Assembly: GCF_011058315.1 (NCBI RefSeq)
Contig: NZ_CP049298.1
Coordinates: 1,426,001 to 1,490,000 of the forward strand
DNA: 64,000 bases
Origin: Chryseobacterium sp. POL2
Lineage (GTDB): Bacteria > Bacteroidota > Bacteroidia > Flavobacteriales > Weeksellaceae
Reading direction: 5' to 3'
Part shown: positions 14,090-21,704 of the stretch, one piece after another
How the letters are laid out: the number at the start of each line of letters is the position of its first letter
Numbering within the stretch: position 1 is the stretch's first letter
The notes under the pieces: model-generated
Database searches by the model: none
What the model saw: the letters and a program-made list of their open reading frames with translations, nothing else
Told to the model about the DNA's origin: nothing
Made by a program: the position numbers and the translations under genes

Positions 14090-14121
14090 GTTCGCAAGCC
14101 AAAAGCTTGCGAACTATTTTG
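14090..14121 (+). terminator. Rho-independent terminator after the M28 peptidase
   Basis: A perfect 10-bp stem (GTTCGCAAGC at 14090-14099 with GCTTGCGAAC at 14105-14114) encloses a 5-nt loop and is followed by ATTTTG. It separates the peptidase gene from the CRISPR array. Confidence 0.85.
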
Positions 14122-14230
14122 TTAAAAGTTACTAGATTCTAATTCTTCTTTAGATTAAGTTTTACTTATAACTACGTATACCAATTTTTAGTCTATCATT
14201 TTACGAGATATAATTAATAATTACACAGAT

Positions 14231-15484
14231 TTCTTTCGATATCTTTGGGATACAACACAACTGATTATTATGAGGAATATTGGGACAAAGAGTTGTGAAT
14301 TGCTTTAGCTCAGCCTATACTGTTTTCCATTGCATTTCGCTGAATCCCATCCGCCGCATTCCCATATAGGATTTCATTTTTCAGTATCTTTGGGATACAA
14401 CACAACACATTATGAATTGGACAGAACCAAAACCACGTTGTGAATTGCTTTCATTTTTCAGTATCTTTGGGATACAACACAACGGGAATTAACCGTTTTA
14501 AAATAGATTGTAAGTTGTGAATTGCTTTCATTTTTCAGTATCTTTGGGATACAACACAACATCGCTGTAACGCTTACGGATGAAGAAAAAGTTGTGAATT
14601 GCTTTCATTTTTCAGTATCTTTGGGATACAACACAACATACCCCAATCTTTTAATTCAGCTTCATCCGTTGTGAATTGCTTTCATTTTTCAGTATCTTTG
14701 AGATACGACACAACTAAAAATGGTAATACTTCAATTTACCCACAGTTGTGAATTGCTTTCATTTTTCAGTATCTTTGAGATACGACACAACAGTACTAAG
14801 TTTCGGAAGTGATGTACTATCGTTGTGAATTGCTTTCATTTTTCAGTATCTTTGAGATACGACACAACTAAAAAAATAATCTTAAAAGAACTTTCTGAGT
14901 TGTGAATTGCTTTCATTTTTCAGTATCTTTGAGATACGACACAACCAAACAAGATTAATCATACAAAAACATGGCGTTGTGAATTGCTTTCATTTTTCAG
15001 TATCTTTGAGATACGACACAACTATCCCTTACATACGTTTGTAGCTATATGCGTTGTGAATTGCTTTCATTTTTCAGTATCTTTGAGATACGACACAACT
15101 ATTAACACTTACCCAACTTTCACATGGTGGTTGTGAATTGCTTTCATTTTTCAGTATCTTTGAGATACGACACAACCAAGCGCAAAATATAGAGCTCGAT
15201 ATTTATGTTGTGAATTGCTTTCATTTTTCAGTATCTTTGAGATACGACACAACAAAGTCGGATGTTTTACCTGTGGCACGACCGTTGTGAATTGCTTTCA
15301 TTTTTCAGTATCTTTGAGATACGACACAACTATGGCAGGAACTTTAATTGATATTCCAACGTTGTGAATTGCTTTCATTTTTCAGTATCTTTGAGATACG
15401 ACACAACTTTTTGATAAAAGAAAATACATGGGTAACCGTTGTGAATTGCTTTCATTTTTCAGTATCTTTGAGATACGACACAAC
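14231..15484 (+). CRISPR. Type II-C CRISPR array: 47-nt repeats, 15 spacers of 30 nt
   Basis: Fourteen intact 47-nt repeats start at 14437 and then every 77 bp up to 15438. Left of them is an interrupted repeat (14292-14406) and a half repeat (14231-14261). All 15 spacers are exactly 30 nt. The crRNA strand is plus, because the first 17 nt of the repeat pair with the tracrRNA anti-repeat. Repeats exist in two versions: the left ones (through 14591) end GGGATACAACACAAC, and the eleven from 14668 on end GAGATACGACACAAC, which makes GTATCT-TTG-AGATAC a perfect hairpin. The same segment contains TATCTTTG (repeat positions 26-33), an exact Bacteroidota -7 motif, with TTG at repeat positions 2-4. 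Decay on the left suggests that new spacers enter at the right, cas-proximal end. Confidence 0.98.
14292..14406 (+). repeat. CRISPR repeat interrupted by a 68-nt insertion (left)
   Basis: Positions 14292-14306 match repeat positions 1-15, and 14375-14406 match repeat positions 16-47 of the older repeat version. Between them lie 68 nt (14307-14374) that contain AGCTCAGCCTATACTG and a possible AATCC/GGATT stem. The -7 motif half of the repeat is intact, so the following spacer could still be transcribed. A related insertion occupies the same position in a degenerate repeat at 15585-15694. Confidence 0.9.
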
Positions 15485-15494
15485 CTCAATGCTT

Positions 15495-15517
15495 AACCTT
15501 CTGTTTTTCAGAAGGTT
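15495..15517 (+). terminator. Hairpin after the last CRISPR repeat
   Basis: AACCTTCTG at 15495-15503 pairs perfectly with CAGAAGGTT at 15509-15517 across a TTTTT loop and is followed by TATTTGTTTTAT. It could end array transcripts running on the plus strand. It sits 11 bp after the last repeat, inside what would be the leader if spacers enter at this end. Confidence 0.6.
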
Positions 15518-15584
15518 TATTTGTTTTATAGGATTTTAAAAATGGGATTTGTCCCCTTAATCATTTACATTTTTAAAGATTTTT

Positions 15585-15694
15585 GAATTGCTTTAGTTCA
15601 GCCTATACTTTCACCTTTGCATTTCACTGAATCCCGTCCGCAGCATTCCCTTCCGGGATTTCATTTTTTGAGTTGCTTTAAAATACAACACAAC
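15585..15694 (+). repeat. Degenerate CRISPR repeat with a 67-nt insertion (right flank)
   Basis: GAATTGCTTT at 15585-15594 matches repeat positions 6-15. A 67-nt insertion follows at 15595-15661, and then a decayed copy of the repeat's 3' half that ends AATACAACACAAC. The insertion is about 85% identical to the one at 14307-14374 by eye and has a better stem (AATCCCG with CGGGATT). The TATCTTTG motif is lost here. The flanking stretch 15485-15754 holds no gene. Confidence 0.8.
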
Positions 15695-15705
15695 CTCAAA
15701 AGGTA

Positions 15706-15732
15706 AAAACCACTGTTCATCGGTGGTTTTTT
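15706..15732. terminator. Bidirectional terminator at the 3' end of cas2
   Basis: AAACCAC and GTGGTTT arms flank a short loop with T-rich sequence on both sides. It lies 22 bp beyond the cas2 stop and would end the minus-strand cas operon. Confidence 0.65.
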
Positions 15733-15754: not shown

Positions 15755-16108
<354 letters not shown>

Positions 16109-16300: not shown

Positions 16301-17194
16301 TCATGGCAATTCTGGATAGGAAATTACTCTTTTTTCTCCCGTGTAACATTTATACAAAGAAGAAACGCTTGTTTTTAAAGCCACCATCAGCGGTCTTTTC
16401 TTGTCTTCAATTTGCACATCCATGGTTGCGATTTGAAGAAGATGGGCTTTAAATTCTTTAGTCAAATCCTCTGTTTCTGGGTTTTTATCCAACCATTGCA
16501 TCACCAATAAATCGACAAAAGGGCGATACGGCTCCATCACATCATCTGCCAAACAATACGGATTGTATTTGTTTTTGTGAAAGATTCCCAAAACGGGCAG
16601 CAAACCCGTTTCTACAATAGCTCTCGCCACCATTGACCGTAGCACCGCATATCCGAAATTGAAAAACTGATTGGGAGAATCGCCAAAGCGTTGCCTTAAA
16701 AAATCGTGACTGATAAGGTATTTCCAATAATGTTGCGCCGCAATGCCTTCCATATTGGTGCTATCGCCACTTTTTACATTATTTTTGTACTCGAGCATGG
16801 GCTCGAAATAATTCCCTAATCTTTTTAGGATTTCAGTTTGGTTTTCAATTTTGCATTCTATGGTTTGTTTCCACAGTTGCTTTTTCAGCGGTTCGCTGGC
16901 TTCTAATTGATCTTTTACGCGGTCTGAATGTTCGGAATGTCCATACAAAGGCAACATAATTCCGTGTGGCAAATGATGCGCATCGCAACTAATGACCACC
17001 ACATTATTGCCCATCATTTTCTGAATGAGCTGGTGCGAAACTGTAATCTGAAAATGATCCAACATCAGCAATCCCAAATCCTCCACAGGAACTTTCCCTT
17101 TTGTTTCCTTGGTTTGGGGACACAAAATATGCATCTGCTCATCTTTGAGTTTCAGATAGGCGGGATTTCCGATGTAAATGGAGCGGGTAATCAT
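16301..17194 (-). CDS. cas1: CRISPR-associated endonuclease Cas1 (type II)
   Basis: A 297-residue spacer integrase with the N-terminal beta-domain (SIYIGNPAYLKLKDEQMHI) and the alpha-helical catalytic domain. Likely metal ligands are Glu in NMEGIAAQHYW, His in GIFHKNKYNPYCLADD and the following Asp pair. Length and motifs fit type II Cas1. Its ATG overlaps the cas9 TGA as ATGA, which implies translational coupling. Acquisition in type II systems also needs Cas9. No csn2 or cas4 is present, as expected for type II-C. Confidence 0.97.
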   Translation of the reverse strand: MITRSIYIGNPAYLKLKDEQMHILCPQTKETKGKVPVEDLGLLMLDHFQITVSHQLIQKMMGNNVVVISCDAHHLPHGIMLPLYGHSEHSDRVKDQLEASEPLKKQLWKQTIECKIENQTEILKRLGNYFEPMLEYKNNVKSGDSTNMEGIAAQHYWKYLISHDFLRQRFGDSPNQFFNFGYAVLRSMVARAIVETGLLPVLGIFHKNKYNPYCLADDVMEPYRPFVDLLVMQWLDKNPETEDLTKEFKAHLLQIATMDVQIEDKKRPLMVALKTSVSSLYKCYTGEKRVISYPELP

Positions 17195-20100
17195 GGATTA
17201 TAATTTTTCCAAGTTATTTGTCCGTCTATTGACATATTGAAATCCTCTCCTTCAAAAAGATAATTCCAATTTTCTTTTGACATTTTAAGTAAAGGTGTAC
17301 TACCTTCTACCTCGATAAACGAAGACTGTTTTTTAAATTGGTCAAGTTCTTTCTTTAATTTTTTAACTCCTTCTATTCCCATAAAAGGAATTAATCGTTT
17401 TAGTCTGTTATCATTTAATCCTACAAAAGAAAATTTGTCTTTTTCAAACTTTTTCTTTCGATCTACAACATTATTTATTGATTCATCCTCAATAATATCA
17501 GGAAGGTTATATTTTTTATCATATTCAAAAACTATTTGATCTTTTTCTAATTTTACATTTTTATCAATATCACCATCCTCAGTAGCTTCCAAGTGATACT
17601 TCAAATAAATACTTCCATCAGCCAATTGTGTTATCTTATAAAGTCTATTCTTTTGAAATTCTATATTTTTTCTTTCCTCAAAATCTTCATCATTATTTAA
17701 AACAATTACTCGTTGCCCTACATTTAGTAATTGTGCCTTATCCCATTTCGAATAATTTAATTTGTTAGTAGCGTCATATCTACGAAGATAATTTTGCACA
17801 TCAAACTTATGGTTTGTTTTATACTCTTTTGCGATTTCAAAAGAAGGAACTAAAATCAAGTCTTTTTCTAATTTATCTCCAACAATCTTTTGAACTAAAA
17901 TTGCATAAGGAACAGAACCTGCTTCCGAATAGAACTTATTCTTATATTCATATTTGGATTGATAGTTAAGTCTTTCTTTAACTTCTCTTCCTGATTTAGT
18001 TTTAATTCTAACGTGACGTATAATATTTCCTTGATAATCCTTAATAACCTGATTATTTTTTTGAGCCCTTACAAGTTCTTTAATGACAGGATCTACAATA
18101 TCTTCAATTTTAGAAAGTACATCTGCAATTGGCTTCCTAACTACAAATAAAAATTCATCTTTGCCTGTTTTGTACTTCCAATCGCCATCTTCTCTTTTTG
18201 CTTTATTATTTTCATCTCTTTCTACATCTTTTATTTTTCCGATATAGGTTTGCGCAAAAAGTGAACTTCGTACTGTATCACCTTTAGCTATTTTAACAAT
18301 TTTATTTCCTAATTCATCTTTAACATACTCTCCATCCTTATTTTTTACAAACTGAACTTTGCCACGATGTCGTACAACTTTACTTGTTTGTTGTAAGATT
18401 TTATCTTTGCGGTAATTAACTACTAAAGTGGTATTTTCAATTTCTTTTATTAAATCTTGCGAGTTAAAACCATAAGGAATTAACTTTCTTCTTACCTCAG
18501 CTAATTTTCTTTTATCGTTATTTTCTACTGAAGAGTAATATTCTTTCAAAATTTCTTCTCTGTAACTACTATTTGTAGGTATCATTGTAAGTACAGCGGC
18601 ATCTACAATATGATGGGTATGTTTATTTCTGCTCTTAATTTCATCTTGTTCCTGAAATCCAAAAATTTTCCTGAAATCTGCTGTCACACTACCTTTTTGT
18701 ACTGCAACTTTTTTGAAATATAGTTTTAGATATTCCCTTGCATATTTACTCACCATTTGGGTATCTACCAATTGTCTTCTTGCCCAACTGTCTTTTATTT
18801 CTTCTGCTTCAAAACGACTTAGTTTATCATCCCAATATTCAAAATGCATTTTATAATAATGCTTATCCTGAATTCTTTTGTTTTTAGCAGCTTCATCTTC
18901 TGGTCCTTTTGCTTTTTTTCTGCTATTATATTGAATTTCATAGTAATTTCTCAACTTTCGCCAAATTCCTAATCTTGGAGAAATACTTGTTCCATTTGGT
19001 GTATCTTTTGAATAATTTTCGCAATAATACGGAGTTCTTGCCTCTTTTATATCTCGATTGTATTTTGCAAATGCAACCGTTTGATTTGCCATTGTATTAT
19101 CTGGTAGAATACTTCTTGGAATTGTATGTTCAACATCAATTTCATTGGAAAACAATTGTGCTATTGAAATCATTTTACCAGTATACATACACTGCCCTTT
19201 TTGTTCCATCCAAAGCTCATATCGTTTTACATCTTCTTTTTCTTTTAATATCCTTATTCTATTTTCGTTCTTTACGATATTTTTATTTTCATCTTCAGTT
19301 TCTTCAAAAATTTGTTCCGACCACAATTCGAAAATCGCAATATTATCTTCAACATTTAAAGATTGATTTTCCTCTGATTTGTATTGTTGCAAAAAACGTC
19401 GTATTTTCTCTCTGTTATCTGCTCTTTCCTTTTGATACTTTTCAATGGCAATTCGCTTATTATTATCATTCAACTCTCTAGCTAACTCAATCACTACTTC
19501 AGTATCTTGGTCTATATCGCCATTAATAATTAACTTATTCAAGAGTTTTCTTACAACGCTCATCGATTTGTTGAACATTGCGTTTTTAATACTATCAATA
19601 AGAGGAATTGGAAGAATTTCTATATTGGTATTTTTATCCTTAGGAAGAAACTTTTCTCCAGTTTTGAAATTGGTTACCAAATTTCTGTTGTATAAATTTT
19701 CTCTGTTGGAATGATGATACAATTCTCCATTTAGATTAATTCCTTTGTCGGAAAGAAATGTTTTGAATATTTCAGTTATTGTAGGTACTTTCCTATACGC
19801 TCGTTTTGAATCGAAAAAATATTCTTGATATTCAAGACCAACATTCCGTATCAGATTATCTTTATCATCAAATTTCTCCCAAGTTTTCTCCCCAAAATGA
19901 GCAATACAGGCTTCATTTATACTTTTAACATCATCATCTTTTAATAGATATGAAGAATCTTTATAAGCGAAGGTAGAATCTTCGTTACCATCAATCATTG
20001 CTCTAGTTTGCCCTTTATGTTTATCTACTAAATTATTGGCAATGGTTGCAATAAGTTGTTTTCTTTTGTATTCTTTATTCGTATCAGACAAGCAATCCAA

Positions 20101-21573
20101 TATTGTATTTCGAGAAGCTTCCCAATCTGTTTTCAATAATTCAGGAATTTTCGCAAGTACAACTGCTTCATTGTAAAGAAAACCTTCTTTCAAAAACGGA
20201 ATAACTTTATTAATAGCTTTTATACTCAAATCTGCATAACCTTGTAGAAATTTTCTTTTTAATTCAACTAGTGGTGAGATTTCGTAATGTTCGTCCTTTC
20301 GTTTTCTTTTAACATTTTCTAATTGTAATTTTTCAATTGCAAATGTTGCTAAGTACTGTTCATTCGAACCAAATACTATATGCCATAAATCATAGATGGA
20401 ATATCCTTTAATTACTTTTGGTGCTGTAGTTATATTATATTGTTCAATTTCTCCAATGGCAGTTTTCGCAAAATCTCCAAACAAAGAAATCAAACCTTTG
20501 CAAACAGGCATTCCAGAAATAGAAGTTTCATATTTTCCATTTTCGGGATTGATGGGATAATTGTATTTATAAGGTTTTTCTGTTTTTTTATCCAATAAAT
20601 CTTTAACTTCTTGAAATTTAAAATTTCCTTCAGCTTTCAAAAACAAATTATTGAATAACAAACTTTTCAACTCCTCATTAATACTTTGTTTTTCGTTATT
20701 TACATCAAAATATTTAATGGTATTAATAAACTGCAATGCTCTAAAAATTTCAAAAGCGGGATGCGAAATAGGACAACGTAATTTTGAAGGTTCCAATGTG
20801 CATTTCCCAATACTTCCTTTTTGGCTTTTTAAAGGACGCTGCCAAATTATCGCCTTCCAAAGTTTGTTTACAAAATCATCTTTATAAACTTCTTTTTTTA
20901 TCTTTTCTATAGAGTAACCTTGTTTACTGCATATCAAATTGAACTCATTTTCATATTCCTCACGAAGAGGATACTGATTTCTTGCTCGTCTTCCTTTATA
21001 TAGAAAATCATTTAGTAAAGCCTCTGCTATAGACCTGTTATTTTCCAAAGAAGCCTTAAAGCCATCTTCAGTACGACGTTCTAACTGCTTTTCAGTTTCT
21101 TTGTCCGTTTCTCCAATATCTTTATAGCCTCTTCTTTGCACCAAATGATACAACACCCTACCAAATTCGTGATTTGTCAATTTTCCATCCAATGCTTTTA
21201 CCCTTAATTCATATGGATTTTTATATTTTTCTCCATTTTCATAAGTGAAATCACAAGCTAACCATTGCAAAAACTTTTTACTTTCAGGAAACTTTCTTTC
21301 TTTTCCTTTTTGGTATGAACTCCAATTCAAAACTTCGTTTTTAGCAAGAGGAGCATAATTCTCAGCCAAAACTTTCAACAACTCCCATTTTCTATATTTA
21401 CGAGCCTTTATCAGATTTCGTTTAGAACGATCTTTCCTTCTATCTTTTGTAGGTGATGTATAACCAGAAGTTCCTTTAGTCATTCCCGTATTAAATGTTA
21501 CAACTCCTTTTTTATCTTTATCTATAAACCAGCCAGCTGACGAACTTCCAATATCTAGTCCAATTTTTGCCAT
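17191..21573 (-). CDS. cas9: Type II-C CRISPR effector nuclease Cas9
   Basis: A 1460-residue RNA-guided DNA endonuclease, in the length range of the larger Bacteroidota II-C proteins. RuvC-I is at the N-terminus (MAKIGLDIGSSSAGW, catalytic Asp7), followed by an Arg-rich bridge helix (KDRRKDRSKRNLIKARKYRK). RuvC-II reads VVIELARELN near residue 697. The HNH domain begins with IDVEHTIPRS (catalytic His near 814), and RuvC-III reads HTHHIVDAAV near 987. All catalytic residues appear intact, with no frameshift. The C-terminal region should read the PAM, whose sequence cannot be deduced here. It is transcribed divergently from the tracrRNA. Confidence 0.99.
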   Translation of the reverse strand: MAKIGLDIGSSSAGWFIDKDKKGVVTFNTGMTKGTSGYTSPTKDRRKDRSKRNLIKARKYRKWELLKVLAENYAPLAKNEVLNWSSYQKGKERKFPESKKFLQWLACDFTYENGEKYKNPYELRVKALDGKLTNHEFGRVLYHLVQRRGYKDIGETDKETEKQLERRTEDGFKASLENNRSIAEALLNDFLYKGRRARNQYPLREEYENEFNLICSKQGYSIEKIKKEVYKDDFVNKLWKAIIWQRPLKSQKGSIGKCTLEPSKLRCPISHPAFEIFRALQFINTIKYFDVNNEKQSINEELKSLLFNNLFLKAEGNFKFQEVKDLLDKKTEKPYKYNYPINPENGKYETSISGMPVCKGLISLFGDFAKTAIGEIEQYNITTAPKVIKGYSIYDLWHIVFGSNEQYLATFAIEKLQLENVKRKRKDEHYEISPLVELKRKFLQGYADLSIKAINKVIPFLKEGFLYNEAVVLAKIPELLKTDWEASRNTILDCLSDTNKEYKRKQLIATIANNLVDKHKGQTRAMIDGNEDSTFAYKDSSYLLKDDDVKSINEACIAHFGEKTWEKFDDKDNLIRNVGLEYQEYFFDSKRAYRKVPTITEIFKTFLSDKGINLNGELYHHSNRENLYNRNLVTNFKTGEKFLPKDKNTNIEILPIPLIDSIKNAMFNKSMSVVRKLLNKLIINGDIDQDTEVVIELARELNDNNKRIAIEKYQKERADNREKIRRFLQQYKSEENQSLNVEDNIAIFELWSEQIFEETEDENKNIVKNENRIRILKEKEDVKRYELWMEQKGQCMYTGKMISIAQLFSNEIDVEHTIPRSILPDNTMANQTVAFAKYNRDIKEARTPYYCENYSKDTPNGTSISPRLGIWRKLRNYYEIQYNSRKKAKGPEDEAAKNKRIQDKHYYKMHFEYWDDKLSRFEAEEIKDSWARRQLVDTQMVSKYAREYLKLYFKKVAVQKGSVTADFRKIFGFQEQDEIKSRNKHTHHIVDAAVLTMIPTNSSYREEILKEYYSSVENNDKRKLAEVRRKLIPYGFNSQDLIKEIENTTLVVNYRKDKILQQTSKVVRHRGKVQFVKNKDGEYVKDELGNKIVKIAKGDTVRSSLFAQTYIGKIKDVERDENNKAKREDGDWKYKTGKDEFLFVVRKPIADVLSKIEDIVDPVIKELVRAQKNNQVIKDYQGNIIRHVRIKTKSGREVKERLNYQSKYEYKNKFYSEAGSVPYAILVQKIVGDKLEKDLILVPSFEIAKEYKTNHKFDVQNYLRRYDATNKLNYSKWDKAQLLNVGQRVIVLNNDEDFEERKNIEFQKNRLYKITQLADGSIYLKYHLEATEDGDIDKNVKLEKDQIVFEYDKKYNLPDIIEDESINNVVDRKKKFEKDKFSFVGLNDNRLKRLIPFMGIEGVKKLKKELDQFKKQSSFIEVEGSTPLLKMSKENWNYLFEGEDFNMSIDGQITWKNYNP

Positions 21574-21578
21574 AATTA

Positions 21579-21609
21579 TTTGTTTTTAAATTTATTTTTA
21601 TTATATTTG
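21579..21609 (+). promoter_or_regulatory. Bacteroidota-type promoter of the tracrRNA
   Basis: TTTG at 21579-21582 and TATATTTG at 21602-21609 (exact TAnnTTTG) are 19 bp apart, the arrangement of the primary sigma factor promoter in Bacteroidota. Transcription would start near 21613-21617, right at the anti-repeat. The motif lies only 6-36 bp upstream of the cas9 start codon on the other strand. Confidence 0.75.
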
Positions 21610-21613
21610 TAAC

Positions 21614-21704
21614 TGAAAGACAATTCACAACAAGGCTATAAGCAGTAGAAAAATTATCTATTCTTAGATATCTAAGCAACTACCTCGGCAGTTGCTATTT
21701 TTTT
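21614..21704 (+). ncRNA. tracrRNA of the type II-C system
   Basis: The anti-repeat at 21614-21631 is complementary to the first 17 nt of the CRISPR repeat, with one bulged A (TGAAAGACAATTCACAAC). Downstream are a short nexus-like GGCTATAAGC, a 6-bp hairpin TATCTA-TTCT-TAGATA at 21655-21670, and a terminator with AGCAACT (21675-21681) paired to AGTTGCT (21690-21696) followed by seven T residues. The predicted primary transcript is about 90 nt and begins at the anti-repeat, so little 5' processing would be needed. It pairs with pre-crRNA for RNase III cleavage and loads Cas9. Confidence 0.93.

Follow-up and report, generated by a model that had tools for sequence, protein, structure and literature searches.

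The window analysed here, a stretch of 64,000 nucleotides from Chryseobacterium sp. POL2 (NZ_CP049298.1, positions 1,426,001 to 1,490,000), contains a CRISPR array whose repeats all carry the sequence TAnnTTTG, the -7 box of the Bacteroidota housekeeping (sigma-ABfr type) promoter. This raises the question whether each repeat serves as a promoter for the spacer that follows it, or whether the array is transcribed from outside and the box is present for another reason. An initial annotation of this DNA had favored the first possibility, with a -33 TTG at the repeat start as part of the promoter and with transcripts starting 3–8 nt before each spacer.

Promoters inside repeats have precedents among type II-C systems. 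In Neisseria meningitidis a promoter reportedly lies within each repeat and directs transcription towards the leader; its -10 box is said to occupy the very end of the 36-nt repeat, so that transcripts reportedly start inside the spacer and 5' trimming is unnecessary. In Campylobacter jejuni, which resembles the present locus in its few cas genes and its separate tracrRNA, dRNA-seq showed that each crRNA has its own promoter, located in the 3' part of the repeat that precedes it (Dugar 2013, PMC3656092). For Flavobacterium columnare a repeat-encoded promoter was proposed from a -33 TTG near the repeat start, and RNA-seq (8 reads) supports transcription within the array and toward the leader (Hoikkala 2021, PMC8092290). 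In Flavobacterium psychrophilum one promoter element per repeat was claimed and RNA-seq shows transcription of the array (Chen 2023, PMC10309648). The idea of a repeat promoter had thus been put forward before for both of these species. The F. columnare proposal concerns shorter repeats, sized like the VI-B repeats of that species, and names the -33 TTG alone and no -7 box; the F. psychrophilum claim refers to a TTG lying 35 bp ahead of every spacer, and TAnnTTTG was applied there to cas9 only. In the literature searched, we found no mention of a TAnnTTTG box in II-C repeats.

Organization of the locus

The locus belongs to type II-C, with cas9, cas1 and cas2 following one another as judged by Pfam matches (Table 1). 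No csn2- or cas4-like fourth cas gene was found among the neighboring ORFs, judged by position and appearance. The Cas9 protein shares 68% identity with that of Chryseobacterium salipaludis, and a search for its relatives in viral contigs found none. A tracrRNA candidate consisting of anti-repeat and terminator, as expected for type II-C, is located beside cas9.

The repeat unit is the 47-nt sequence GTTGTGAATTGCTTTCATTTTTCAGTATCTTTGAGATACGACACAAC, and the oldest end of the array lies on the left, the newest on the right at the side of cas2. We found the box, in the form TATCTTTG, at repeat positions 26–33 of the crRNA strand in 16 of 16 repeats, as had been annotated, 14 nt ahead of the next spacer. 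The copies begin at 14240, 14385, 14462 and so on to 15463, with a period of 77 bp after a first step of 145. As a sequence, a promoter element facing the next spacer is present in every repeat. The TTG at repeat positions 2–4, separated from the box by 21 bp, was found in 14 of the 16 repeats, the exceptions being repeats 1 and 2. The extent of the array had been given as 14231–15484; its end stood, while its start lies slightly further upstream.

Table 1. Features of the type II-C locus in window coordinates; promoter, terminator and tracrRNA entries are predictions
Feature	Position	Strand	Description
Terminator-like hairpin	14090–14114		separates the array from the peptidase gene upstream; readable on both strands
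CRISPR array	14215–15484	+	16 repeats (47 nt) and 15 spacers (30 nt)
Repeat 1 (oldest)	14215–14261	+	5' half eroded, TTG gone; -7 box and 3' end retained
-7 box TATCTTTG, repeat 1	14240–14247	+	sole TAnnTTTG upstream of the first spacer
Repeat 2	14292–14406	+	68-bp insert (14307–14374) between 5' half (with TTG) and -7 half
-7 box, repeat 2	14385–14392	+	later boxes from 14462, every 77 bp to 15463
-7 box, last repeat (15438–15484)	15463–15470	+	predicted start at about 15474–15477
Terminator-like hairpin	15495–15517	+	10 nt past the last repeat; stem covaries in 13 family leaders
Second leader-like terminator	15705–15731	+	behind a degenerate, insert-bearing repeat (about 15579–15695)
cas2	15755–16093	-	Pfam PF09827
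cas1	16301–17194	-	Pfam PF01867
cas9	17191–21573	-	1460 aa; Pfam HNH_4, RuvC_III, Cas9_a
tracrRNA promoter (predicted)	21580–21609	+	TTG-N19-TATATTTG, 3 nt ahead of the anti-repeat
tracrRNA candidate	21613–21704	+	beside cas9; anti-repeat CTGAAAGACAATTCACAAC, conserved AAGGCTATAAGC tail

The insert in repeat 2 is one of two copies of a 68-bp element, the only ones genome-wide; the other, 85% identical, lies within the degenerate repeat. Together with the leader-like stretches after 15484 and 15695, this pair looks like the trace of an old tandem duplication of array and leader. Repeat 2 and its twin were also considered as tracrRNAs and dropped, the candidate with conserved tail and terminator being the one that adjoins cas9.

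The crRNA strand and the tracrRNA

The anti-repeat CTGAAAGACAATTCACAAC pairs with nucleotides 1–17 of the repeat only (-22.8 kcal/mol), which identifies the plus strand of the array as the crRNA strand and shows that the box faces the next spacer. The newest spacer lies at the downstream end of transcription, a reversed polarity that shows in 38 arrays, where the oldest repeat (upstream) is eroded and the newest (downstream) is perfect. The tail of the tracrRNA candidate ends in the terminator GCAACTACCTCGGCAGTTGC followed by a T-rich run, and relatives have the same anti-repeat plus an AAGG..TA tail. Nucleotides 18–47 of the repeat, including the box, stay outside the crRNA:tracrRNA duplex. 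Since the anti-repeats pair with repeat nucleotides 1–17 to 19 only, the motif is not maintained by tracrRNA pairing.

The stretch around the box might also be kept for a function as RNA, either as the hairpin GTATC-TTTGA-GATAC or as a processing site of the crRNA precursor. In the clade of the window the box indeed forms one half of a perfect 5-bp hairpin, with 5 of the 8 box bases paired in the predicted fold. This hairpin is limited to a subclade, though: over 38 box-bearing repeats mean pairing of the box is 42% and folding is barely above that of shuffled sequences (mean z -0.46). As the box also lies outside the tracrRNA duplex, we regard an RNA function as highly improbable.

The tracrRNA genes themselves carry the same box. 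TAnnTTTG was found directly ahead of the anti-repeat in 64 of 116 tracrRNA candidates from related loci, compared to a mean of 3.6 and a maximum of 10 in 500 shuffles, and the distance between TTG and box peaks at 19 nt. Two related loci (L098, L121) have 48-nt repeats with GCTCTTTGACATC near the end and without TAnnTTTG; their tracrRNA genes show a perfect TATCTTTG before the anti-repeat.

Promoter signals in the Chryseobacterium genome

We calibrated the promoter pattern on 1.26 Mb of the genome that contains the window, sampled in 60 stretches of 20 kb and with CRISPR repeats masked, the unmasked -33 profile having read GTTGTGA. Comparing gene-upstream regions with their reverse complements turned out to be an invalid control, as divergent genes place promoters on both strands. 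Intergenic TAnnTTTG occurred 562 times versus 274 times in a reversed-sequence control, an excess of about 2-fold. A TTG preceded these boxes at gaps of 18, 19, 20 and 21 in 24, 32, 23 and 22 cases (background 12.9), corresponding to a 1.7–2.5-fold enrichment over other gaps; at gaps of 22–23 there was none. In a wider Bacteroidota set the optimum was 19–20, with gap 21 at background. Both calibrations taken together, the gap of 21 in the repeat appears tolerable but at the edge of the preferred range of 18–21.

Box endings TTCG, TTAG and TTTC gave no spacing signal in either the own-genome or the wider Bacteroidota set, and in the window's own genome other boxes likewise lacked a TTG-spacing signal except for the rare TAnnCTTG. 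A scan for E. coli-type promoters revealed no excess. In F. johnsoniae the -33 motif was not found, according to work cited in PMC7366714.

Conservation of the box among relatives

A random 47-mer from one strand of this genome is expected to contain TAnnTTTG with p of about 0.032 and TTG-N18-21-TAnnTTTG with p of about 0.0016. A 47-mer copied 16 times is a single observation, and the weight therefore rests on the relatives. These were gathered with two queries that are blind to the motif, the Cas9 protein and the initial 16 nt of the repeat, giving a comparison set of 68 distinct Bacteroidota II-C repeats of at least 43 nt. The exact TAnnTTTG was present in 31 of the 68, versus 1.3 expected from shuffles (maximum 6 in 2000), and in 15 of 37 versus 0.83 expected once repeats were clustered at under 70% identity; on the opposite strand it was found in none of the 68. 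No more than one mismatch from the box at positions 21–30 was seen in 55 of 68 repeats, compared to about 8.5 in shuffles. Because all repeats are homologous, shared descent inflates these counts.

The position of the box is similarly constant: among the repeats with TAnnTT[T/C]G, 36 of 38 have it 17–22 nt after the TTG and 13–16 nt from the repeat end. T1, A2, T5 and T6 are nearly invariant, while the n positions read TC, TT, AA, CC, AC, CT, GC or AG. In three related loci (L039, L101, L134) we noticed GATCTTTG about 6 nt nearer to the spacer (positions 31–32), possibly a shifted box with starts closer to the spacer.

Not every relative keeps the exact motif. The 5' end of this repeat occurs in 139 of 320 family genomes. 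The pattern TAnnTT[T/C]G stands at the expected place in 123 of the 139, the exact TAnnTTTG in 58, so that the exact motif is not universal, while the relaxed pattern is largely kept. Loss of the exact motif from most related repeats, named beforehand as an outcome against the promoter reading, is indeed what the genome count gives (81 of 139), mostly through a single change to TATCTTCG in one large genus group, which is probably Chryseobacterium. Family repeats with TATCTTCG in place of TATCTTTG include those of L147, L149, L150, L161–L163 and L165. The oldest repeat of L149 has an exact box, TAGCTTTG, although TATCTTCG is the consensus of that array.

With homologous repeats, and with many Chryseobacterium repeats drifted to TTCG, the box might be a functionless relic of shared descent. 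Such a relic would not be expected to form the best preserved part of the 3' half of the repeat while the stretch downstream of it diverged, nor to survive in oldest repeats whose 5' ends are eroded beyond recognition, and the probability we attach to this explanation is close to nil. The comparative pattern instead suggests that the box is kept by selection.

Decay of the oldest repeat

The oldest repeat of a II-C array is the first one, ahead of the first spacer, and no crRNA requires its 5' part. Of 55 arrays, 34 have an eroded repeat lying one unit ahead of the first full repeat. Typically the first 10–18 nt or so are gone, while the box and the 3' end are intact, and repeat 1 of the window fits this pattern. 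In the 38 arrays with a box, the mismatch of the oldest repeat amounted to 25% in nucleotides 1–20, compared to 5% for the box and 3% for the final 6 nt, whereas the newest repeats of the same arrays showed zero mismatch. After clustering, the 5' part was worse in 28 arrays and the 3' part in 2. One clear opposite was observed in L051, where the unit preceding the first repeat has retained its 5' half but no longer has the box and the 3' half.

Loss that begins at the 5' end would also result from erosion of the oldest repeat at its outer side. According to a II-C survey (Feussner 2025, PMC12080349), mutations of the oldest repeat fall mostly in the first 15 nt, which is explained there as suppression of a useless extra crRNA while the promoter must remain, and terminators lie upstream of II-C arrays; in the sections consulted, neither a Bacteroidota -7 box nor a test of its retention was found.

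The -33 TTG is not supported as an essential component of the promoter. It is missing from the oldest repeat in nearly all arrays in which that repeat is eroded, and no replacement TTG at a gap of 18–21 was found there. As the TTG disappears together with the 5' part and has no replacement, we argue that the -7 half and not the TTG is essential; the TTG is also the less conserved of the two motifs.

In other CRISPR types, integration is guided by motifs within the repeat, and the box, placed mid-repeat at a near-constant distance to both ends, might likewise be a landmark by which Cas1-Cas2 integrate spacers or measure the repeat, with no role in transcription. The oldest repeat, which is no integration site, nevertheless keeps the box and the 3' end and loses the repeat start. 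In addition, which positions are fixed and which vary follows the promoter consensus, and the same box stands at tracrRNA genes, which are not integration sites. We consider a role in integration improbable.

Signals flanking the array

The array might also be read from outside as a single long precursor, with the box as an incidental feature. Reading from the leader is usual for most CRISPR arrays, and a study of Riemerella anatipestifer (PMC5006608), which reported no promoters within the repeats, proposed that the promoter lies in the leader. Its CRISPR1 resembles the present array in being type II-C with a 47-nt repeat starting GTTG and an anti-repeat, TGAAAGCAATTCACAA, upstream of cas9. 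In the region upstream of the present array, no TAnnTTTG was found outside the repeats; repeat 1 has the only one ahead of the first spacer. Among 53 related arrays, 8 have TAnnTTTG within 150 nt upstream, which is at chance level. A terminator-like hairpin readable on both strands additionally separates the window array from the upstream gene.

A promoter in the leader would transcribe opposite to the crRNA strand defined by the tracrRNA, and in crRNA direction a putative terminator follows the last repeat. In 13 family leaders the hairpin is found at the same place, with 98% of cells pairing versus 85% in shuffles and 18 two-sided changes versus 5.8. An incidental box would furthermore not hold a fixed place across divergent repeats. 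Transcription from outside is hence unlikely in our judgement.

The leader of the window array (15485–15525) starts with CTCAA, and its covarying hairpin lies no more than about 10 nt from the last repeat. The same combination of CTCAA leader and hairpin was seen in L051, L056, L059, L142, L145, L148, L150, L156, L159, L161, L164 and L166.

A probable promoter embedded in the repeat

In summary, a promoter embedded in the repeat is the best explanation of the box, and a probable one. It draws on the place and orientation of the box, conserved across Bacteroidota, on the match with the promoter grammar of the own genome, on retention in the oldest repeat and on the lack of any other upstream box. 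Not supported are an essential TTG, the universality of the exact motif, the novelty of the idea and the role given to the extra bases.

The latter had been suggested to hold the promoter and so to account for a repeat of 47 rather than 36 nt. In L072 (59% Cas9 identity) the repeat has 36 nt and GTTGTGAATTGCTTTC is joined directly to GATCTTTGACATC, with 10–11 nt absent between the 5' half and the box. The extra bases therefore space the box and do not hold it; Campylobacter also fits a promoter within its own repeat.

We propose that the repeat is a two-part element. The first 17 nt or so would become the portion of the crRNA that pairs with the tracrRNA, while the 3' part of about 30 nt would work as DNA, namely as a Bacteroidota housekeeping sigma-type promoter with the -7 box TATCTTTG; the -33 TTG at the repeat start would probably be a dispensable part of it. 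As every repeat carries a promoter signal facing the next unit, the guide RNAs are probably turned on individually. The box ends at position 33 and a start about 4–7 nt later is predicted, so that transcripts would begin within the repeat (positions about 36–41), about 8–11 nt before the next spacer and not 3–8 nt as annotated. A transcript would then extend across the spacer of 30 nt and enter the following repeat, and tracrRNA and Cas9 would capture the 5' part of that repeat. The tracrRNA beside cas9 would have a promoter of this kind as well, the terminator upstream of the array would stop read-through into it, and the one just past the last repeat would end transcription leaving it. What the sequences show is the box with its place and conservation, its position outside the tracrRNA pairing, the decay pattern of the oldest repeats and the terminator-like hairpins; use of the box by sigma factor and polymerase, the start sites and how the crRNAs mature afterwards are what we infer.

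The principle is the same as in the known II-C systems with repeat promoters. The array described here differs by its sigma consensus, the mid-repeat box and the predicted starts inside the repeat; in C. jejuni the promoters have a -10 box and were shown by dRNA-seq, whereas here the promoter is predicted from sequence. New is the proposed assignment of the promoter to a part of the repeat, the -7 half, and the comparative evidence for selective retention.

With slightly better than even confidence we extend this reading to Bacteroidota as a whole: a long two-part II-C repeat with a promoter half centered on TAnnTTTG, in which the -7 half is decisive, tagged crRNAs and a promoter grammar shared with the tracrRNA. 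If so, newly made crRNAs would, in contrast to those of Neisseria, start with a short 5' tag derived from the repeat, crRNA and tracrRNA would be under the same promoter grammar, and the TTCG variants of Chryseobacterium would mark arrays that are weaker or differently driven. The repeat promoter of Flavobacterium would be reassigned from the TTG named so far to the -7 half. For users of Cas9, 17 nt of the repeat would matter for pairing and the other 30 nt probably only for transcription. Each spacer would have its own start signal, so that old and new spacers could be expressed equally and an array interrupted by an insertion would still be functional.
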